From positions 1 to 35,417 of the IMG/VR virus record IMGVR_UViG_3300042261_001802: a stretch of DNA of 35,417 nt; one strand, 5' to 3'. The DNA is from a virus. The translations under genes and the position numbers were made by a program. Positions 7,778 to 27,518 of the stretch are shown piece by piece (positions within the stretch are counted from its first letter, which is position 1; each line of letters opens with the position of its first letter). A model generated the notes under the pieces. It did no database searches, was not told the origin of the DNA, and worked only from the letters and a program-made list of their open reading frames with translations.

Positions 7778-8248
7778 ATGACGCAATCGGTTGAAAATAC
7801 AACCTCCATGACGGTTCGGGCGATCCGGGAATTCTCGACTGATGCCCTGGACGCGGACTGGTGCCGCTCCTGGGTATTGCAACACATCCATGGCAGCCTG
7901 GCCGGCTGCCCTCACTGTGACCAGGTCATCGGAGATGAGCGCCGCCAAGAGACGTTCTGGCGCCGGGGCCGGTTACGCTGCAATAAATGCGGCCGATACT
8001 TCGACGCCCACACCGGGACGATTCTGGCAGGCACGTCGCTCGACTATCGGGAGATATATCTCCTGGCGTTCTTGCTCGGCGCCGGCCTGCCGGTCCGTGA
8101 AGTCTCCAAGCGGCTCGGCATCAACGAGAGCACGGTCCGGGACTGGCGTGACCGGCTTACTCATGGGCAGCGGATGTCCACACACACCATAGGGGATAGG
8201 GGCCGCGCGGCGCGGGGGGAGGGGGGTCTTGATGTTATTGTCTGCTGA
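7778..8248 (+). CDS. Zinc-ribbon plus HTH protein, transposase-like DNA binder
   Basis: The start is the ATG at 7778 with GGAAGGGACGG upstream, giving 156 aa. The frame also opens at 7658 (196 aa, ATGA overlap with the GpZ-like gene), but the added 40 residues run through a GC-rich palindromic stretch and look non-coding. The protein carries a zinc ribbon (CPHC and CNKC pairs). After it comes an HTH (VREVSKRLGINESTVRDWRDRL). This pairing occurs in IS1595/InsA-type transposase N-termini and in stand-alone phage DNA-binding proteins. No catalytic DDE domain is present, so it is a regulator or DNA-binding factor rather than a transposase. Its end overlaps the clamp start. Confidence 0.65.
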   Translation: MTQSVENTTSMTVRAIREFSTDALDADWCRSWVLQHIHGSLAGCPHCDQVIGDERRQETFWRRGRLRCNKCGRYFDAHTGTILAGTSLDYREIYLLAFLLGAGLPVREVSKRLGINESTVRDWRDRLTHGQRMSTHTIGDRGRAARGEGGLDVIVC

Positions 8249-9335
8249 TCGCTCTGTTTTCTCGAAACTGCTAGGCCGGGTTATCGGGGTAACGAAAAAC
8301 AAATCCACCATTCCGGTGCTCTCGTGCTTACTCCTCGAAGCCGCTCCGGAAACGTTGACTTTTTCCGCAACTGACCTTGAAGTGTCTATCAAGATTGCCG
8401 GGAGCGAGGGGATCGCTGTCGACAAAACCGGCTCGGTTGTTGTGTCCGCCGGTAAGCTGAAGAATTGCATCGACTCAGTCCCCACCGATAGGGTCTCCCT
8501 CCGGCTGCTCGATAAAGGACGGCTGGAAATCTCCGCCGGAGAGTCCCTGTTCAAGCTGGTCTGCGAATCGTCCAATGATTTCCCAGCTATTCCCGACCCT
8601 TCCACCCGGCCGGAAAATTCTTTTTCACTACATCCTGACGACCTGCAGACGTTCATCAACGCCTGCCTCCATGCCGTATGCAGCGACGAGACAAAACACA
8701 CGCTCTGCGGCATGCTCTTCAAAATCGAAGATGAAGCTCTTGTTGCCTGCAGCACCGATGGACACCGCCTGTCATTGGCAGGCAAGCGGATCCCCAGCAT
8801 CACTATCGTCAACGCCGTCATTATCCCGCGTAAAGGCTTGGAAGAGCTCCGTAAGCTGCCACTGGAACCTCTAACGGTCCACCTCGGCGACAATAATATG
8901 GCCGCCGTCCAGGGTGGCACGCTCCTCTCTCTCCGCCTCATCGAGGGACATTACCCGGACTACCGGCGTGCCATCCCCACCGGCTATGAATTCCATACAA
9001 CCTGTAGCGGCTCCGCTCTTGTTGACGCTGTAAACCGAGTCAAGCTCATGTCGAGGAACAGCGGAATAATTCTGGAGATTCTCGATGGAGCGATCTTTCT
9101 GCGTGCGCAAAACGAGTCCGGAGATGAGGCCATCGACAGCATCCAGTGCAACCAACGGGGCGACGCGCTGCAGGTGCGGCTCAATGCACGTTATCTTCTG
9201 GATGCGCTCATCTCCCTGGGTGACGGAGACATCGTTATCAAATACAAGAGCGAGCTCAACCCTCTCGTGATTCTGCCCGCGAATTTCGGGCAATGGGATG
9301 AGCGGCTCGAAGTGCTGATGCCCATGCGGGTGTAA
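8232..9335 (+). CDS. dnaN: DNA polymerase III beta (sliding clamp) homologue
   Basis: This full-length 367-aa clamp has three repeated domains of about 120 residues. Recognisable features are the N-terminal KNKSTIPVLSCLLLEA, CSTDGHRLSLAGKRI in the middle domain, EGHYPDYRRAIPT, and the C-terminal LEVLMPMRV, which matches the usual bacterial MPM(R/K)(L/V) ending. A clamp tethers polymerase to DNA and recruits repair and exchange factors. The start chosen is the ATG at 8232, behind a GGGGAGGGGGG ribosome binding site; a TTG lies 3 nt earlier. A phage copy would let the phage recruit or retune host Pol III while its own primase-helicase opens the origin. Confidence 0.93.
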   Translation: MLLSADRSVFSKLLGRVIGVTKNKSTIPVLSCLLLEAAPETLTFSATDLEVSIKIAGSEGIAVDKTGSVVVSAGKLKNCIDSVPTDRVSLRLLDKGRLEISAGESLFKLVCESSNDFPAIPDPSTRPENSFSLHPDDLQTFINACLHAVCSDETKHTLCGMLFKIEDEALVACSTDGHRLSLAGKRIPSITIVNAVIIPRKGLEELRKLPLEPLTVHLGDNNMAAVQGGTLLSLRLIEGHYPDYRRAIPTGYEFHTTCSGSALVDAVNRVKLMSRNSGIILEILDGAIFLRAQNESGDEAIDSIQCNQRGDALQVRLNARYLLDALISLGDGDIVIKYKSELNPLVILPANFGQWDERLEVLMPMRV

Positions 9336-21241: not shown

Positions 21242-21376
21242 ATGACCTGCTTTATCTGCCGGGAGACCGGCGCGAAAACCTGCGATGGTCATTGCGGACT
21301 TTGCCCGGACCAAGAAGAAGGACCGATAAATGATCACCAAACCGAGCGAAAGGATGTGGATGATGAGGGAAATTGA
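21242..21376 (+). CDS. Cys-rich miniprotein (44 aa), tentative
   Basis: ATG at 21242 opens a 44-codon frame with Cys at 3, 6, 14, 18 and 21 (CFICRE, CDGHCGLC), suited to metal binding. It overlaps the amidase start in another frame, and the ribosome binding site is weak (ACAGG). It may be real because it fills a gap that would otherwise be empty. Confidence 0.35.
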   Translation: MTCFICRETGAKTCDGHCGLCPDQEEGPINDHQTERKDVDDEGN

Positions 21377-21830
21377 ACTGCTGGTAATCCATTGTGCCGC
21401 GACACCCAACGGTAGGCCGCACACCGTTCAGGACATTGACTCCTGGCACAGGGCCAACGGCTGGCAGCGCAAAAGCAAGGACATGCAGACATTTAACCCC
21501 CGGCTATCTGCCATAGGCTATCACTATGTAATCTACGTCGACGGGACCGTTCACACCGGCAGAAGGCCCGAGGAAATAGGCGCCCATGTGGCTGGACATA
21601 ATTCCAACAGCCTCGGCATCTGCCTTGTGGGAACCGATAAATTTACCCCGCGGCAATGGGCCGCCCTGAGTAATCTGGTGCACGACCTACGCATCGAATA
21701 TTCCGGCGCGAAGATATGCGGGCACAGGGATCTGCCGGGCGTCCACAAAAGCTGCCCGGGGTTTTCCGTGGCCGATTGGATGAAAGACGGTCTCCCGCTG
21801 CCCGAGCATACGTTGTCGGTGGCGGAATAA
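21330..21830 (+). CDS. N-acetylmuramoyl-L-alanine amidase endolysin (T7 lysozyme type)
   Basis: This 166-aa protein is an Amidase_2-type zinc enzyme that cuts the amide bond between the glycan and the stem peptide. Zinc ligands are H21 (LVIHCAAT), H132 (CGHRD) and C142 (KSCPGF), with the catalytic-type K140 two residues before the Cys as in T7 lysozyme. IGYHYVIYVDGTVHTGR is the conserved substrate-groove segment. There is no signal peptide, so it needs a holin to reach the wall. The ATG at 21330 has AAGGA upstream. ATGs at 21357/21360, behind AAAGGA, would give a start closer to the usual family length. Confidence 0.92.
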   Translation: MITKPSERMWMMREIELLVIHCAATPNGRPHTVQDIDSWHRANGWQRKSKDMQTFNPRLSAIGYHYVIYVDGTVHTGRRPEEIGAHVAGHNSNSLGICLVGTDKFTPRQWAALSNLVHDLRIEYSGAKICGHRDLPGVHKSCPGFSVADWMKDGLPLPEHTLSVAE

Positions 21831-21859
21831 CTCGACCCACAAAAGAAAGGAGTTCCACC

Positions 21860-22144
21860 GTGAAAATGTTTCGTAAGTTCTTCGCCTTTATTCTTGTTTT
21901 GTTTGTTCTATCTCTCCAGCTCATTGGTGTCGCTGTCGCCGCAACTGTCGCACCGCCCGGCGTCGCTGTCGCCGCGGAACCGACCGCTATGCAGTGGGTA
22001 ACCGCCAACCTGGCCACCATCTTCCTGGTGCTGCTGGGAATATCGGAGTCTCTGGCGCTCCTCCCCTGGTTCAAGGGCAACGGCATCATGGACATGATTA
22101 TCAAGGCCCTGCGCACCCTGGCCGGAAAACCTCCGGCTGCATGA
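21860..22144 (+). CDS. Putative holin-like membrane protein (94 aa)
   Basis: The start is a GTG at 21860, 6 nt after AAAGGAG; the frame is open further upstream but only inside the amidase gene. Residues 4-25 form a first hydrophobic segment (signal-like, ending AVAA). A second lies at about 45-65 (NLATIFLVLLGISESLALLPW). A small two-segment membrane protein next to the endolysin is a good holin candidate. No sequence motif proves this. Confidence 0.55.
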   Translation: MKMFRKFFAFILVLFVLSLQLIGVAVAATVAPPGVAVAAEPTAMQWVTANLATIFLVLLGISESLALLPWFKGNGIMDMIIKALRTLAGKPPAA

Positions 22145-22145
22145 C

Positions 22146-22385
22146 ATGGCGATCGTCGGCCTCATTACGGCTATTCTGACCATTCTCGCGCCGATCCTGG
22201 CGGCCATCGCTAAAGAGGTGGCCGCCAGGCGGGAGAAGACCTTTGAAAATGACGCGGCAAAATTCGATGTTGCCCTTGCTGGTTGTGACACTGATGCTCT
22301 CAGCGCTGCTTTTAACGAGCTGCGGCCACCGCCAGGTTACGGTGATACCGGCGGACAAGATGATCCGGACGTTGCCCAACGGTAA
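22146..22385 (+). CDS. Putative inner-membrane spanin-like protein (79 aa)
   Basis: ATG at 22146 is 2 nt after the previous stop. It has an N-terminal transmembrane helix (IVGLITAILTILAPILAAIA), then a charged helix and a Pro/Gly-rich tail. It overlaps a lipoprotein gene in another frame, like Rz and Rz1. It is shorter than a usual Rz, so the call is tentative. Confidence 0.5.
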   Translation: MAIVGLITAILTILAPILAAIAKEVAARREKTFENDAAKFDVALAGCDTDALSAAFNELRPPPGYGDTGGQDDPDVAQR

Positions 22386-22476
22386 CTACGAGGTCACTCC
22401 TGCCTGGCTGCAGGAAAGATATAAATTCGAACGCTGGTGCTCGGAGCAGCTTAAAGGGTGCCGAACTACAAAATGA
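22249..22476 (+). CDS. Rz1-like outer-membrane lipoprotein
   Basis: It starts at ATG 22249 (a TTG lies 6 nt earlier), embedded in the preceding gene in a different frame, and has 75 aa. The signal peptide ends in a lipobox LLTSC, after which a mature chain of about 48 residues remains. Such an overlapping lipoprotein is the hallmark of the outer spanin that bridges to the inner spanin and disrupts the outer membrane. It implies a diderm host. Confidence 0.6.
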   Translation: MTRQNSMLPLLVVTLMLSALLLTSCGHRQVTVIPADKMIRTLPNGNYEVTPAWLQERYKFERWCSEQLKGCRTTK

Positions 22477-22500
22477 TTCGTGCCAGGAGAACTAAATAAT

Positions 22501-22827
22501 ATGAGACAGATTGTATCGACAACCGCACCACTCGCGGCGGGGATAGCATACATAAGTCCTTCAATGTCTAGTGACAACATTCCCGGAATGGGAGGGATTC
22601 AGTCCTTCCGTGGATACGTTTTCAGTGACCAAGCGTTCACGGTTAATATTTTTCAGTCACAGGATGGTGTTAATTTTGACTTCAAATCCACATTTGCTTC
22701 CGGTGTGAGCGGGGCAAATCAGCAATGTGGATTCATGGTGGAGCGGTTGGCGGAACACTGTAAATTCGAGATTGTCTGTGGGGCGGTCGATATGACCGTT
22801 TTGCGCGGATATCTCAACGGATTATAG
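22501..22827 (+). CDS. Beta-rich protein upstream of DGR target
   Basis: The start is the ATG at 22501, 11 nt after AGGAG, giving 108 aa; a GTG at 22480 is the alternative. The sequence is beta-rich with Ser/Gly/Phe strands (YVFSDQAFTVNIFQSQDGVNFDF). Its codons look more AT-rich than those of its neighbours. It lies directly before the DGR target and may be its partner on the virion. Family not recognised. Confidence 0.55.
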   Translation: MRQIVSTTAPLAAGIAYISPSMSSDNIPGMGGIQSFRGYVFSDQAFTVNIFQSQDGVNFDFKSTFASGVSGANQQCGFMVERLAEHCKFEIVCGAVDMTVLRGYLNGL

Positions 22828-22836
22828 GGGGGTCTC

Positions 22837-24351
22837 ATGATAGAGACTAGTTTAATTCAGAAGGATCCGCCGAATAGTCCTTCCATCGCCACCCTCCCGG
22901 CCCACTACAGCCGCGACACCGCCTGGGGCATCAAGGGCCGCGGCGTGGCAGCCGACCGCTACACACTCCTGTCTCCCTCCGCCCTGGCGGTCAACATCGG
23001 CGACATGGGTTTCGTGCTGCCGACGCAGGCCTCGCTCGTCCTCTCCGCCGCGGCGTCCTGGGACACTATTGCCGGCACCGATTACACCGTGGCAGCCACC
23101 CGGGCAGGTAAGGATTTCTATGTCTACGCCTGCCAACAGGGAGGCGTGGCCCCGAAGTTGGTCGTCTCCGCTAACTCCACCGTGCCGACCGGGTACACAG
23201 CCGACAATAGCCGCAAAGTTGCCGGGTTCCACTGTCTGTGCGTGGCAGTCGGCACTATCGCCGGCCATGCCCTGACCGGCTTCGTCGTCGGAGATATCCT
23301 GCCGGAATCAGTCTGGGACCTGTCGTTCCGGCCTACCTGCTCGCCCGAGGGAATGTCCTACGATGCCAAGTCCGGCATCTGGGTGGACATCTACCTCACC
23401 TCCGGCACCGGCACCAGTACCCGCAGTGCCTACAACGCCACTATCTCCGACAACCGCAACTGGATGGATTTTGTTGATGACCTGGGCGCGGTCGGCAAAC
23501 GGCTCTTGACTGACCCTGAATTCCAGCTGGCGGCTGCGGGTTCCAACGAGGAAACCAACATCACCGGCTCTGCCGACCCGGTCACCACCGGCGGCCACGT
23601 GGACACCGCGGCCCGGCGCATGATCTCCAGCATCGGCCTGGAGGATTGCTGCGGCGTCATGAACCAATGGCTCCAGGACCAGTCATTCCGCTGCGACCCG
23701 GACGGTACCGTGCAGGCCGCAGGGCTTACCTTCACGGTCTATTATGTGGCCGCTCCGGGCGGCAACCCAATTTACCTGAAACAGAGTACCGACGGCCAGT
23801 ATTACCTGGCCTGCAACATGGCCACCGCCCTGGCCGACAAGCAGATAGGCCCGACGAACTTTAAAATTCCGGTGAAACACGAAGCAGCCGCGGCCACCGG
23901 CGCCATCGGCCAGGTGTATTACAACTCCGGGGGTACCGCTCCGGCAAAGATACTCTGCAACATCGCCACCATCACAAAAGACGTGTTTTTGCCGAGCAAC
24001 AATCCGACCTACTTCCTGCAGATTAAACACGACGCAGCCGCAGCTACAAACGGCCGGGCTCTCAACTATGACGACGGCGCCGATAACAGGCTGGAATGTA
24101 ACACCGCATCGGCCGCCAACGACTCCGCCGACCTCGCCCTCAACAGTCAGTCATTCAGCTACTATGACCTCCCCGGCTCCAAGGGCAGCCTCTACAAACA
24201 GGGCACTCAGGGGGATGTCAAGTTGCTGGCCGGCGGTTATTGGAGTAATGGGACGAATGCCGGTTCGCGCTACCGTGCTGCGAATTTCTCTCGCTGGTAT
24301 GCGGCTTCGATTCTCGGTGCGCGCGGGTGCGCCCGGAGCCGGGAGACGTAA
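22837..24351 (+). CDS. DGR target (variable adhesin, C-type-lectin-like end)
   Basis: This protein has 504 aa. The N-terminal three-quarters is a virion-type beta protein (SVWDLSFRPTCSPEGMS, GIWVDIYLTSGTGTSTRS). A middle section has two copies of a unit beginning KH(E/D)AAAAT. The last 45 residues are the variable region (GGYWSNGTNAGSRYRAAN...), whose GxWxNGxNAGxRxR pattern is that of DGR C-type-lectin folds. Codons 468, 481, 484, 485, 488-490, 492, 493, 495 and 499 differ from the template. It is likely a receptor-binding protein whose ligand-contact residues are rewritten by the downstream RT. The start has GGGGGG upstream. Confidence 0.88.
   Translation: MIETSLIQKDPPNSPSIATLPAHYSRDTAWGIKGRGVAADRYTLLSPSALAVNIGDMGFVLPTQASLVLSAAASWDTIAGTDYTVAATRAGKDFYVYACQQGGVAPKLVVSANSTVPTGYTADNSRKVAGFHCLCVAVGTIAGHALTGFVVGDILPESVWDLSFRPTCSPEGMSYDAKSGIWVDIYLTSGTGTSTRSAYNATISDNRNWMDFVDDLGAVGKRLLTDPEFQLAAAGSNEETNITGSADPVTTGGHVDTAARRMISSIGLEDCCGVMNQWLQDQSFRCDPDGTVQAAGLTFTVYYVAAPGGNPIYLKQSTDGQYYLACNMATALADKQIGPTNFKIPVKHEAAAATGAIGQVYYNSGGTAPAKILCNIATITKDVFLPSNNPTYFLQIKHDAAAATNGRALNYDDGADNRLECNTASAANDSADLALNSQSFSYYDLPGSKGSLYKQGTQGDVKLLAGGYWSNGTNAGSRYRAANFSRWYAASILGARGCARSRET
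24222..24337 (+). repeat. DGR variable repeat (VR)
   Basis: This is 116 bp at the 3' end of the target gene. It aligns without gaps to the template repeat (offset 189). Fourteen positions differ, and every one is an A in the template: 24238, 24277, 24278, 24286, 24287, 24290, 24298, 24301, 24304, 24305, 24311, 24313, 24319 and 24331. The GC-rich end (24320-24336) is the likely IMH, the initiation site of homing. Confidence 0.95.
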
Positions 24352-24368
24352 TTCGTTAAACGTTCTTC

Positions 24369-24383
24369 GCGCACGTCATGCGC
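24369..24383. other. Hairpin between VR and TR
   Basis: GCGCA (24369-24373) pairs perfectly with TGCGC (24379-24383) across a 5-nt loop, 32 bp after the VR end. DGRs often carry a short hairpin or cruciform just past the IMH that enhances homing. Here the stem is only 5 bp, so the call is tentative. Confidence 0.4.
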
Positions 24384-24410
24384 ACTGTAGAAATGGTTGT
24401 GGCGCCGATG

Positions 24411-24526
24411 GTTGCTGGCCGGCGGTAATTGGAGTAATGGGACGAATGCCGGTTCGCGCTACCGTAATGCGAATAACTATCGCTGGAATACGAATTCGAA
24501 TATCGGTACGCGCGGGTGCACCCGGA
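24411..24526 (+). repeat. DGR template repeat (TR)
   Basis: This 116-bp donor copy of the VR has 27 adenines, 14 of which are changed in the present VR. Most lie in the first two bases of AAT/AAC codons. When mutated these cannot yield stop codons, which is the usual DGR design. Read in the VR frame it encodes NWSNGTNAGSRYRNANNYRW and onward and stays open to 24579, but it lacks a plausible start and is a template RNA rather than a gene. Confidence 0.95.
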
Positions 24527-24656
24527 TACAGACGAGTCAAACTCCCTGGCTGGGAGCCATGACCTTGTCCGGTAGGTGAGAACCGAAAGGCAAAACACAA
24601 AACGGAGCACGGGCCGGGCCAGTAGGGAAACCGGACGTCAGGCCCGGAACTAAACC
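24527..24656 (+). ncRNA. DGR RNA spacer with GC stem
   Basis: The 130 nt between TR and the RT gene contain no gene. CCGGGCC (24614-24620) pairs with GGCCCGG (24641-24647) around a 20-nt loop, ending 9 nt before the RT start. In Bordetella BPP-1 the region after TR is part of the structured RNA on which reverse transcription starts. The same role is proposed here, and the stem may also limit translation of the RT. Confidence 0.5.
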
Positions 24657-25667
24657 ATGAAACGACACGGCAATCTTTTCGACAAAATCACCAGCAGCGA
24701 GAACCTGCGGCTCGCCTATGAAAAGGCCCGCCGCGGCAAGTCCCGCATGCACAACGTCCAGCGCTTCGAGCGTGACGTGGACGGAAACCTGGAGCGGATC
24801 CGCCAGAGCCTGGTGGACCAGACCTTCACCACCTCCGGCTACCAGGTGAAAAAGATTATCGTGCCCAAGGAGCGCGACATCTACGTTCTGCCCTTCGCGC
24901 CCGACCGTATCGTACAGCACGCCATCATGAACATCCTGGAGCCCCTCTGGGACGCCCTTTTCATCGCCGACTCCTATGCCTGCCGCGTTGGCAAGGGCAT
25001 CCACGCCGGCAGCCTCCGGACCATGCAGTTTGTCCGGCAATACCGCTACGTGCTCAAGTGCGACATCGCCAAGTTTTACCCGAGCATCGACCACGATGTC
25101 CTCTATGGCATCGTGCAGCGGAAAATCAAATGCCCTGATACGCTCCGGCTGCTGCGCGACATCATCTACTCCGCACCGGGCGGCAAGAACGCGCCCATCG
25201 GCAACTATACTAGCCAGTGGTTCTGCAATATCTACCTCAACGAGCTGGACCAGCTGGTGAAGCATCACTACAAGGTCAAGGGGTATCTCCGCTACTGTGA
25301 CGACTTTTGCCTGTTCAGCGATGACAAGAAATACCTGCGGCAGCTGGCTGCCGAGCTGAAAGTATTCCTGGCCGACCGGCTGAAGCTGACCTTCAGTAAA
25401 TGCGAGCTGTTCCCTGTTTCACAGGGAGTGGACTTCCTCGGCTACAGGCATTTCAGAAACTACATCCTGGTGCGCAAGAGCACCGCCGCCAGGGTCAAAC
25501 GCCGACTGGCCAACCTTCCCCGCCTCCTGGCCGCCGGGGAGATAACAGAGGAGCAGTATCGATCATCAATTGCCTCCACCAGGGGGTGGCTCAAATGGGC
25601 GAACACGCATAACCTATCCGTTGCGCTGGAGCTGGACCGCCTGACGGAGACGAGGGATGCCGCATAA
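24657..25667 (+). CDS. DGR reverse transcriptase
   Basis: This protein has 336 aa. Motifs in order: the N-terminal KKIIVPKERDIYVLPF, motif A KCDIAKFYPSID with D136, the DGR-specific motif 4 IGNYTSQ (181-187, where group II introns have QGxxxSP), motif C YCDD (213-216), and DFLGYR near the thumb. There is no maturase or endonuclease domain, as is normal for DGR enzymes. It would copy TR RNA into cDNA with errors at adenines, and the cDNA then replaces VR. The ribosome binding site is weak and partly in a hairpin. The end overlaps the next gene by 11 bp. Confidence 0.96.
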   Translation: MKRHGNLFDKITSSENLRLAYEKARRGKSRMHNVQRFERDVDGNLERIRQSLVDQTFTTSGYQVKKIIVPKERDIYVLPFAPDRIVQHAIMNILEPLWDALFIADSYACRVGKGIHAGSLRTMQFVRQYRYVLKCDIAKFYPSIDHDVLYGIVQRKIKCPDTLRLLRDIIYSAPGGKNAPIGNYTSQWFCNIYLNELDQLVKHHYKVKGYLRYCDDFCLFSDDKKYLRQLAAELKVFLADRLKLTFSKCELFPVSQGVDFLGYRHFRNYILVRKSTAARVKRRLANLPRLLAAGEITEEQYRSSIASTRGWLKWANTHNLSVALELDRLTETRDAA

Positions 25668-25956
25668 ACGTTTCAGCGATTTTGCCCGCGAGAGGATCCC
25701 TCTCGATGGAGAGAAAACCAGGCTCGATGACATCATCAACCGCGAGATACTGATAATCGGCCACTCCATCAAGAAGAGCCGCTATGACAAGAACAACAGC
25801 GGCAAGTTCCTGACCCTGCAGTTCGAGCTCGACGGCGACCGCCGGGTCCTCTTCACCGGCAGCGACGTGCTGATAGAACAGGTAGAGAAATACGGCGACC
25901 AGATACCGTTCGCCGCCATCATCAAGAAAATCGACAGGTTTTACACCCTGTCATGA
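25657..25956 (+). CDS. DGR-linked small protein, possible nucleic-acid-binding accessory
   Basis: This protein has 99 aa, overlaps the RT stop by 11 bp and must be co-translated with it. RBS-like GGAG and GAGGG lie upstream. The first 25 residues are basic and charged. The rest is a compact beta domain (REILIIGHSIKKSRYD, KFLTLQFELDGDRRVLFTGS, PFAAIIKKIDRFYTL) that looks OB-fold-like. No Avd gene is present between VR and RT, so this is the best candidate accessory factor of the DGR. A nucleic-acid-binding role is inference from its charge, apparent fold and linkage. Confidence 0.6.
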   Translation: MPHKRFSDFARERIPLDGEKTRLDDIINREILIIGHSIKKSRYDKNNSGKFLTLQFELDGDRRVLFTGSDVLIEQVEKYGDQIPFAAIIKKIDRFYTLS

Positions 25957-25965
25957 GGAGTATCC

Positions 25966-26274
25966 ATGAAAGGCTTTCCGAAGCATCTGAACACCAGGGC
26001 TGATTATCTCTACATCAAAGAGCATTCCTCTCCGGAGTTATGGCGGCCACGCTTTCAGGCGCTGCTGAACGAGCGGTTTTCCTGGCTGCCGGCCGGGCCG
26101 CTGGCTGATGGCGAACCGGGCAACGATGACGAGTCCCACCGGGTGGTGGAGATGCGGGACGAGACCGGGCAGACGGTCGTTTCGCGGGTACAGGAGGAAT
26201 ACCGCGAGGACCCGAACGCGGTGATTTTTCGGCTGGGGTTTACGGTGGAGGAGGTTGAGAAGGCGCTGGCGTAA
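25966..26274 (+). CDS. Hypothetical tail-region protein (102 aa)
   Basis: ATG at 25966 follows GAGGAG. The protein (FPKHLNTRADYLYIKEH, WRPRFQALLNERFSW, then an acidic loop and a C-terminal VIFRLGFTVEEVEKAL) is conserved-looking but not recognised. It starts the gene run that leads into the tail tube gene. Confidence 0.6.
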   Translation: MKGFPKHLNTRADYLYIKEHSSPELWRPRFQALLNERFSWLPAGPLADGEPGNDDESHRVVEMRDETGQTVVSRVQEEYREDPNAVIFRLGFTVEEVEKALA

Positions 26275-26301
26275 CTCTATCGATGGAGACCGGGAGGCTA
26301 T

Positions 26302-26460
26302 ATGGCAGCCATAATCGTAATCGGCAAGGGCGATCTGGGGTACTCGCCGAAATTCGGCGCTATCATCCAGGGGCAGGAGTACACAATCGAGGAGGAGGAC
26401 TTCGCGCCTGAGCTCTTCGAACGCAAAAGAAAAAAAGAACCGAAAGGAGGGGATAACTGA
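26302..26460 (+). CDS. Small protein before tail tube (52 aa)
   Basis: ATG at 26302 follows CGGGAGG. The product begins MAAIIVIGKGDLGYSPKFGA and ends in a Lys-rich tail (RKRKKEPKGGDN). Its stop overlaps the tail tube start, and that gene's ribosome binding site (AAAGGAGGGG) is inside this one. No family recognised. Confidence 0.55.
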   Translation: MAAIIVIGKGDLGYSPKFGAIIQGQEYTIEEEDFAPELFERKRKKEPKGGDN

Positions 26461-27518
26461 TGGGGCTCACTGGAGAGGAAATTGTATATGCGTGGAAGAA
26501 AGGGGCAACCTGGGGCACGGCTGCGGCCTGCGGGGTCGGTAACGGTTTTCTCGGCCTGCCGATATCGGCGGATCCTGATAATGAGTTGGTGGTTGATGAC
26601 TCACTCGGGCAGTTTTTCGCCGTGGACGCCAGCCCCGGCAAAACCTCCCTTGCGCCCTCAGTGCCGGGGTACCTGCGGTTTAATGACGCGGTTGTCCTTA
26701 CCATGCTCGCCCAGTTCTTCGGCACGGCCGGAGTGCCGGCCAACCATGCCGGCGGCACGTTGTCGAAAGACCATGTCCTGAAGATGGCCAAACAGGTGGA
26801 CGGAAAATTCGGCACTCTCTGCGCCATGCTGGGCACCGGCTTCGTGGAGGAGATTCCCAGCTGGAAGATTGCCAAAGTAGTCGTTACCTGGGAGACCGGA
26901 CAGCCGGTCAAATTCGCGTTCTCCGGCCCGGGCTTCGACCTGGTGACCAACAGCGCAGTCAACACCCTGGCGACCATGGCGAACGTCACCATCCTGGAGC
27001 GGGCCAACCGTGCGTACATGGGCCAGACCGTATTCCGCATCAACGACCAGAGCGGCATTGCCCTGGCGGTTGGCGACAAGCTGGGCGTGTCGAAAATCGA
27101 GCTTACCCTGGAGCGAAAATTGACCGGGGTATACGGCACCTATGTGGATTCGGGCGCGGGCCGAGACCTCATCGATGAGCCGACCAACGACGGCCAACCG
27201 TCCGGGAGCCTGAGCATCACCCAGTCCCGGCTGCAGAACGCCAATGGCCGGGCCGATATCCGGGCTAACACTGCCAAGAAGGCGGACATCACTATTACCG
27301 GCCCAATCATCGAGGGTGCTATTCCGTACAGTATCACGTTCCAGCTCCCGCACCTGAAGCCCAAGAAGAACGCCAATCCGCATAAGCACGGCATCCTTGA
27401 AAACTCCAGGGAATACGAGGTCCTGGGGGCAACAGCGGCGCCTGCCGGGATGACCGGCAATACCGACCCGTGCTGGGTGAATTTGACGAATCAGATTGCC
27501 ACGGATTTGCTGGCATAA
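26460..27518 (+). CDS. Major tail tube protein
   Basis: This 352-aa protein has alternating beta strands and polar loops (DHVLKMAKQVDGKFGTLCAM, ITGPIIEGAIPYSITFQLPH). Its place directly before the G/GT chaperones and tape measure is that of the tail tube subunit of siphoviruses. It polymerises around the tape measure protein. The length is larger than a minimal tube subunit, leaving room for an extra surface domain. Confidence 0.75.
   Translation: MGLTGEEIVYAWKKGATWGTAAACGVGNGFLGLPISADPDNELVVDDSLGQFFAVDASPGKTSLAPSVPGYLRFNDAVVLTMLAQFFGTAGVPANHAGGTLSKDHVLKMAKQVDGKFGTLCAMLGTGFVEEIPSWKIAKVVVTWETGQPVKFAFSGPGFDLVTNSAVNTLATMANVTILERANRAYMGQTVFRINDQSGIALAVGDKLGVSKIELTLERKLTGVYGTYVDSGAGRDLIDEPTNDGQPSGSLSITQSRLQNANGRADIRANTAKKADITITGPIIEGAIPYSITFQLPHLKPKKNANPHKHGILENSREYEVLGATAAPAGMTGNTDPCWVNLTNQIATDLLA

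Follow-up and report, generated by a model that had tools for sequence, protein, structure and literature searches.

A phage diversity-generating retroelement with an Mtd-like adhesin and a predicted OB-fold protein as candidate partner in the place of Avd

Introduction

The IMG/VR virus record IMGVR_UViG_3300042261_001802, analysed over its whole 35,417 nucleotides (hereafter the window), carries a diversity-generating retroelement (DGR) that comprises a target adhesin gene ending in a variable repeat (VR), a template repeat (TR), a structured non-coding spacer, a reverse transcriptase (RT) gene, and a small gene overlapping the end of the latter. With a probability of roughly 75%, the element is a phage DGR in which mutator and adhesin form a mobile cassette and in which a small OB-fold protein takes the part played by Avd in the DGR of Bordetella phage BPP-1. 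As a DGR it belongs to a known kind; the novelty lies in the predicted OB-fold partner that would replace Avd, for which fusions to the RT provide evidence, and in the travelling cassette. A preliminary description, made by a model from the letters alone, had recognised the repeats, the RT, and the adhesin; its statements are taken up below together with the results that bear on them.

Repeats and reverse transcriptase

VR and TR are 116 nt long, lie 189 nt apart from start to start, and are 88% identical. All of their 14 mismatches fall on TR adenines, of which there are 27 (chance P about 5e-11), exactly as the preliminary description had stated, and the adenine is replaced in VR by T (5), G (5) or C (4). 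The VR forms the 3' end of the 504-aa target gene, where 11 codons are altered relative to TR, every one nonsynonymously. None of the 18 adenine-containing TR codons that lie within the repeat or on its border can be turned into a stop by an A-to-N change. A third VR copy was not found across the window, the next best match agreeing at 44 of 89 non-adenine positions.

The proposal that these 11 codons had all been diversified in this copy needs one correction. Position 24331 of the VR, opposite TR adenine 24520, carries G in each of the 14 VRs compared and therefore looks more like a fixed difference at the homing-site boundary (initiation of mutagenic homing, IMH/IMH*), whereas the other 13 differences fall inside the freely varying zone. 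An IMH/IMH*-type contrast is indeed present at the 3' ends of the repeats, GGAGCC-like in VR and GGATAC in TR, and it recurs in relatives.

The RT matches PF00078 (5e-19), phrog_1423 (3e-118) and the structure of the BPP-1 RT (8ub7, 5e-61), to which it is 38% identical over 96%. Both motifs named in the preliminary description, IGNYTSQ and YCDD, are present in its reading frame, and the former fits the DGR-type motif (I/V/L)GxxxSQ.

Absence of Avd and the OB-fold protein

Neither the window nor any of 43 related virus records gave a match to the four-helix bundle protein Avd (bAvd, PF22296), whereas the BPP-1 positive control matched at 2e-37; on this point the element is not the complete BPP-1-type DGR that it had been taken for. 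The interval of the preliminary description closes with a 99-aa open reading frame (ORF) that was left undiscussed there. The protein has no match in Pfam, NCBIfam or PHROG, and a sequence search against solved structures gave chance matches only, but phrog_19665 (no known function) matches 29 of the 42 members of its family. Its AlphaFold model (predicted local distance difference test, pLDDT, 88.5) has the topology b-b-b-a-b-b, predicted as an OB fold, and the best VIA matches are mostly OB domains, namely those of RuvBL2, SSB, PriB, RPA-like and HIN proteins. Based on this model, the protein is predicted to be an OB-fold nucleic-acid binder. It is not a form of Avd as judged by profile comparison, in which the two families are unrelated (hhalign probability 0.1%).

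The gene keeps close company with DGR RTs. Among 83 dereplicated related DGR RTs, 65 are accompanied by it (55 downstream, 8 upstream, and 2 in the same ORF). Avd occurs in five of these 83 loci and never together with the OB gene, and the Avd clade is set apart in the RT tree by a supported branch (95/94). In one clade and in locus L107 the OB gene lies between VR and TR, which is the position of avd in BPP-1; this shift took place on two branches of the RT tree. Furthermore, the OB domain forms the C-terminal domain of the RT itself in L045 (6.6e-16, using a profile from which fusions had been excluded) and is likewise joined to the C terminus of the RT in the Bacteroides phages p00 (8e-14) and BKO1-TP3 (2e-13). 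A search of viral contigs by OB sequence alone, with single OB proteins as queries, yielded 39 loci, of which 35 lie beside a DGR RT and the rest are contig edges or partial matches. In 199 genomes of one phylum the single OB match also adjoins an RT. In a search with the L068 protein as query, the matches in the 20 phage records listed, out of 24, lie under an RT feature or carry no annotation. The ratio of nonsynonymous to synonymous substitution rates (dN/dS) is 0.04–0.08 for OB and 0.09–0.12 for RT, and the OB protein is thus under strong purifying constraint. Taken together, co-occurrence, position, fusion, and constraint make a functional link between OB protein and RT very likely, and the OB protein would do the job of Avd.

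Some candidates were set aside. The OB fusion in L061 is weak, surfaces only with iterated or enlarged profiles, and was not counted as strong. The crAss-like phages LMMB and cr55 were rejected as OB carriers, having no significant OB domain although their RTs have C-terminal extensions. In the LMMB RT (L076:3001-4296), whose DGR has been described without avd, the extension comprises about 95 residues and resembles by eye a very diverged OB domain, which no profile confirms. Moreover, no homology was found between BPP-1 Bbp4 and either the OB gene or the 102-aa gene that follows it.

This 102-aa gene might be the functional accessory instead of the OB gene, as it travels with the cassette and stands next to the RT in all six main-clade loci that have no OB gene. 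Such a role is very improbable, since in 41 loci with an OB gene, among them those where OB occupies the Avd slot, no 102-aa gene was found; the gene is moreover never fused to an RT among the loci collected here, and encodes an acidic, faster evolving protein. The 102-aa protein may possibly be a chaperone or adaptor of the adhesin.

Variation among related phages

Scans with the RT collected 61 viral and 9 genomic loci, most of them with the same kind of VR/TR pair. In 89 distinct pairs, 1455 of 1523 mismatches (96%) lie at TR adenines, and 60% of the TR adenines are altered. The altered adenines have become G in 810 cases, C in 318 and T in 327, so that G is 2.5 times as frequent as C or T; this excess probably derives in part from fixed boundary positions.

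The alignment of VRs from related genomes, which the preliminary description had suggested as a check, gave differences almost exclusively at adenine sites. In near-identical phages from different samples, L006 and L007 differ at 20 of 29 adenine sites of the VR, at none of 83 other VR sites, and at none of 1211 flanking bases. Comparisons among L012, L013 and L014 gave 15–17 of 30 adenine sites and 0–1 of 85 others, and L026 and L059 differ at 15 of 24 and 1 of 84, respectively. The same pattern is found in the pairs L018/L022, L041/L042 and L048/L049. Adenine-specific rewriting of the VR is thus at work in related phages.

The cassette of the window could nevertheless be a frozen DGR, intact in sequence, whose VR was last rewritten long ago. 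No reads and no identical phage from other samples were found that show variation of this copy, and a relative, L124 (IMGVR_UViG_3300022666_000010, L124:7912-8190), has a clean deletion corresponding to about 24388-25842 of the window, which removes TR, spacer, RT, and much of the OB gene, and still keeps an adenine-mutated VR. L124 seems to be either a DGR that lost its engine or an assembly skip. Against a frozen state, the RT and OB frames of the window are open and under strong purifying selection, and its VR differs from those of its three nearest relatives (L001, L002 and L024) at 12–16 of 26 adenine sites and at 1–2 of 88 others, the VR/TR flanks diverging by 14–18%. This alternative is accordingly regarded as quite unlikely.

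A separate observation concerns L018:3677-3793 and L019:4514-4630, whose contigs are 99.9% identical over 8.4 kb. Their VRs are identical and their TRs differ at six positions, mostly adenines, reflecting either assembly chimeras or cDNA written into the TR itself.

Target adhesin

The preliminary description had held the target to be unlike Mtd in its N-terminal part. This view is contradicted by the second domain of Mtd (mtd_2nd, Pfam PF21916, 2.9e-19) at residues 82-161, by a phmmer match to Mtd (5e-16), and by the AlphaFold model (pLDDT 85, 27 sequences), which VIA aligns with Mtd at Z 29 over some 300 residues spanning target residues 15-504. The next folds are far lower at Z 11–13 (Treponema variable protein, FGE-like, and TaqVP). 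By sequence profile and model, the target is a homologue of Mtd over most of its length. Residues 1-15 are phage-specific, 15-281 are Mtd-like, about 282-434 form an inserted domain, and 435-504 constitute the C-type lectin end with the VR. As foreseen, the predicted model has a C-type lectin fold, and the target carries the middle and lectin domains of Mtd. The model alignment begins at Mtd residue 48 and target residue 15, leaving no room for an N-terminal prism; the modelled target therefore lacks the beta-prism of Mtd (residues 1 to about 48). The inserted stretch, some 150 residues directly ahead of the VR-containing part of the lectin domain, is present, according to BLASTP, in relatives that align over the full length and absent in others.

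A shared cassette

Nucleotide similarity to L001, L002 and L024 starts at codon 17 of the target gene and stops at the close of the 102-aa gene, at about 26260 (Table 1). Beyond the cassette, no nucleotide or protein similarity to these three loci was found within the fetched flanks of about 3–5 kb. The cassettes of the relatives lie in different surroundings. In L002 the neighbours are a contractile tail sheath, a tape measure, and a baseplate hub; the L024 cassette is flanked by portal and head-protease genes, and that of L001 by a head protease and a minor tail gene. The simplest reading of these sequence comparisons is that an adhesin-plus-mutator module is exchanged between phages, the first 16 or so residues of the adhesin being left to the recipient. 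These residues, specific to each phage, probably serve in attachment to the virion.

Table 1. Features of the DGR cassette in the window
Feature	Position	Strand	Remark
Shared adhesin-DGR cassette	22885..26260	+	82-84% nucleotide identity to L001, L002, L024
Target gene, 504 aa, Mtd-homologous adhesin	22837..24351	+	PF21916 2.9e-19; phmmer; AlphaFold; VIA-align; BLASTP
Variable repeat (VR)	24222..24337	+	11 codons changed relative to TR
VR 3' boundary (IMH-like)	24319..24350	+	...TGCGCCCGGAGCC in VR, ...TGCACCCGGATAC in TR; contrast recurs in relatives
Template repeat (TR)	24411..24526	+	27 adenines
TR-RT spacer, conserved non-coding RNA element	24527..24656	+	Covarying hairpin arms 24610-24619 / 24637-24646
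DGR reverse transcriptase, 336 aa	24657..25667	+	IGNYTSQ and YCDD motifs
99-aa predicted OB-fold protein, candidate accessory in Avd's place	25657..25956	+	Start overlaps RT end
102-aa acidic protein (pI 5.0), last gene of shared cassette	25966..26274	+	Common to cassette in relatives

Spacer RNA

Although it does not code for protein, the 130-nt stretch separating TR from RT is conserved among relatives. The hairpin at its end has two-sided changes in 12 of 12 pairs, and pairing is retained in 87% of cells compared with 48% after shuffling and 33–45% after sliding. A covariance model built from the spacer matches just upstream of the RT in most held-out main-clade loci and does not match BPP-1. 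Conversely, the Rfam family Phage_DGR (RF03022), which scores 104.7 bits in BPP-1, finds nothing in window positions 21500-27000 even at E values up to 1 and matches none of the OB loci tested. The Rfam family RT-17 (RF03020) reaches threshold in the OB loci L045, L068 and L108, at the same site as the covariance model in L045 and L108, while in the spacer of the window no match to it appears even at E 1. RT-3 of Rfam matches p00 and BKO1-TP3. Given this distribution of families over the loci, the type of spacer RNA follows the RT clade.

Surrounding phage

The DGR acts on a phage adhesin whose C terminus is lectin-like and whose gene lies between lysis (amidase, 21330-21830) and tail genes, in agreement with the preliminary description. 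The status of prophage that was also assigned there is unproven: an S24 repressor is encoded, but the window genes tested included no recognisable integrase, and as a record the sequence is a virus contig of 35 kb. Positions 8229-9335 encode a DNA polymerase III beta clamp with three DnaN domains, which seemed unusual for a phage contig of 35 kb.

Comparison with known systems

Avd is essential for homing in BPP-1. A DGR assay reconstituted in E. coli exists (PMC12875486), and a kanamycin-repair reporter has been used in this way for BPP-1. The window resembles the mtd-avd-TR-brt arrangement of BPP-1 in its Mtd-type target with the VR at the 3' end, the TR upstream of the RT, the adenine-specific pattern, the related RT, and the IMH/IMH*-like boundary contrast. 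It differs in having no detectable Avd and a 99-aa OB gene after the RT, in a spacer RNA that does not match RF03022, in that no clear stem-loop was found after the VR, and in a target without the prism and with an inserted domain in its lectin part.

The DGR of the archaeal virus ANMV-1 (PMC4372165) shares an Mtd-like target (AdtA), a TR adjoining the VR, and the same OB gene directly 3' of the RT (AJP62065), though its RT is distant. An 'Avd' ORF is marked in a figure of that publication. The ORF AJP62063 (L123:3717-3911), between AdtA and the RT, consists largely of translated TR plus spacer and is therefore probably not a protein gene. The DGR of p00, a Hankyvirus (PMC6199706), is likewise Avd-less by profile and has an OB domain, but this is fused to the RT, the lectin-domain ORF that carries the VR is much larger, and the RNA is Rfam RT-3; a nearby small ORF was called Avd-like by its authors on charge and mass. 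Avd-like ORFs of Nanoarchaeota DGRs were also published on grounds of size and charge. The Methanosarcinales phage vir525 has a phrog_11262 tail-protein target, an RT that is 62% identical, and an OB gene after the RT, which differs in being annotated merely as hypothetical protein. Likeness to the RT-17 RNA was seen in the three OB-bearing relatives named above and does not extend to the spacer of the window.

Roughly one DGR in four is reported to lack a homologue of the accessory gene (PMC7290462). HRDC and MSL are listed as other DGR accessories (PMC10053308). No description of an OB-fold DGR accessory was found in the literature searched, which did not cover the major survey of accessory genes by Wu et al. 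2018 (NAR).

Discussion

By homology with BPP-1, the RT would make errors at template adenines while copying the TR-spacer RNA, and the cDNA altered in this manner would take the place of the VR that closes the adhesin gene on its 3' side. Up to 17–18 codons of the Mtd-like C-type lectin tip could be altered in this way, never with a stop codon, and receptor binding by the adhesin would vary as the outcome. The 99-aa OB protein may bind the RT with TR-RNA or cDNA and thereby allow efficient copying and homing. Adhesin and mutator would move between phages as one cassette.

Several observations weigh against this interpretation. The evidence for adenine-specific activity comes from relatives and not from the window's own copy. 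The OB fold is a prediction with a VIA Z of only 5–7, and Foldseek with the same model returned nothing below 1e-3. No clear BPP-1-like stem-loop was found 3' of the VR; the BPP-1 control gives an 8-bp stem, whereas the window has only a 5-bp CCCGG-AG-CCGGG, which L062 has not preserved. The search for similarity beyond the cassette covered the fetched flanks only. Within the same RT clade, the records of six loci (L012-L015, L017, and L063) contain no OB gene, and L012-L014 (records of 9–26 kb) show adenine-specific VR variation without it. The OB protein is therefore either not strictly needed there or encoded beyond these fragments. In L012-L014 no Avd was detected, and only the 102-aa gene follows the RT.

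These loci, as well as some crAss-like DGRs in which neither Avd nor an OB domain is detected, would suit an explanation in which the OB protein stands outside the DGR machinery, as a phage gene for assembly or ssDNA binding that rides with the cassette, the RT working alone or with a host factor. Such an explanation is unlikely, as it does not account well for the fusions to the RT C terminus in separate lineages, the shift to the Avd slot on two branches, the presence of OB beside the RTs both of DGRs that have Mtd-like targets and of others whose targets are quite different, and a dN/dS as low as that of the RT. The OB protein as a partner of the RT in the place of Avd is hence preferred.

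On balance, it seems fairly probable that phages use at least two DGR machineries, one with RT and Avd and the other with RT and an unrelated OB protein (partly phrog_19665) that stands by itself, occupies the Avd slot or is joined to the RT C terminus, with spacer RNAs unlike that of BPP-1. The OB class would span bacterial and archaeal viruses, and some cassettes would have spread whole between virion types. The OB-fold partner, fused to the RT in Bacteroides phages with named hosts, offers a concrete candidate for the accessory in Avd-less DGRs. Moreover, the exchange of cassettes suggests that a phage may gain, in one step, an adhesin together with its own mutator.

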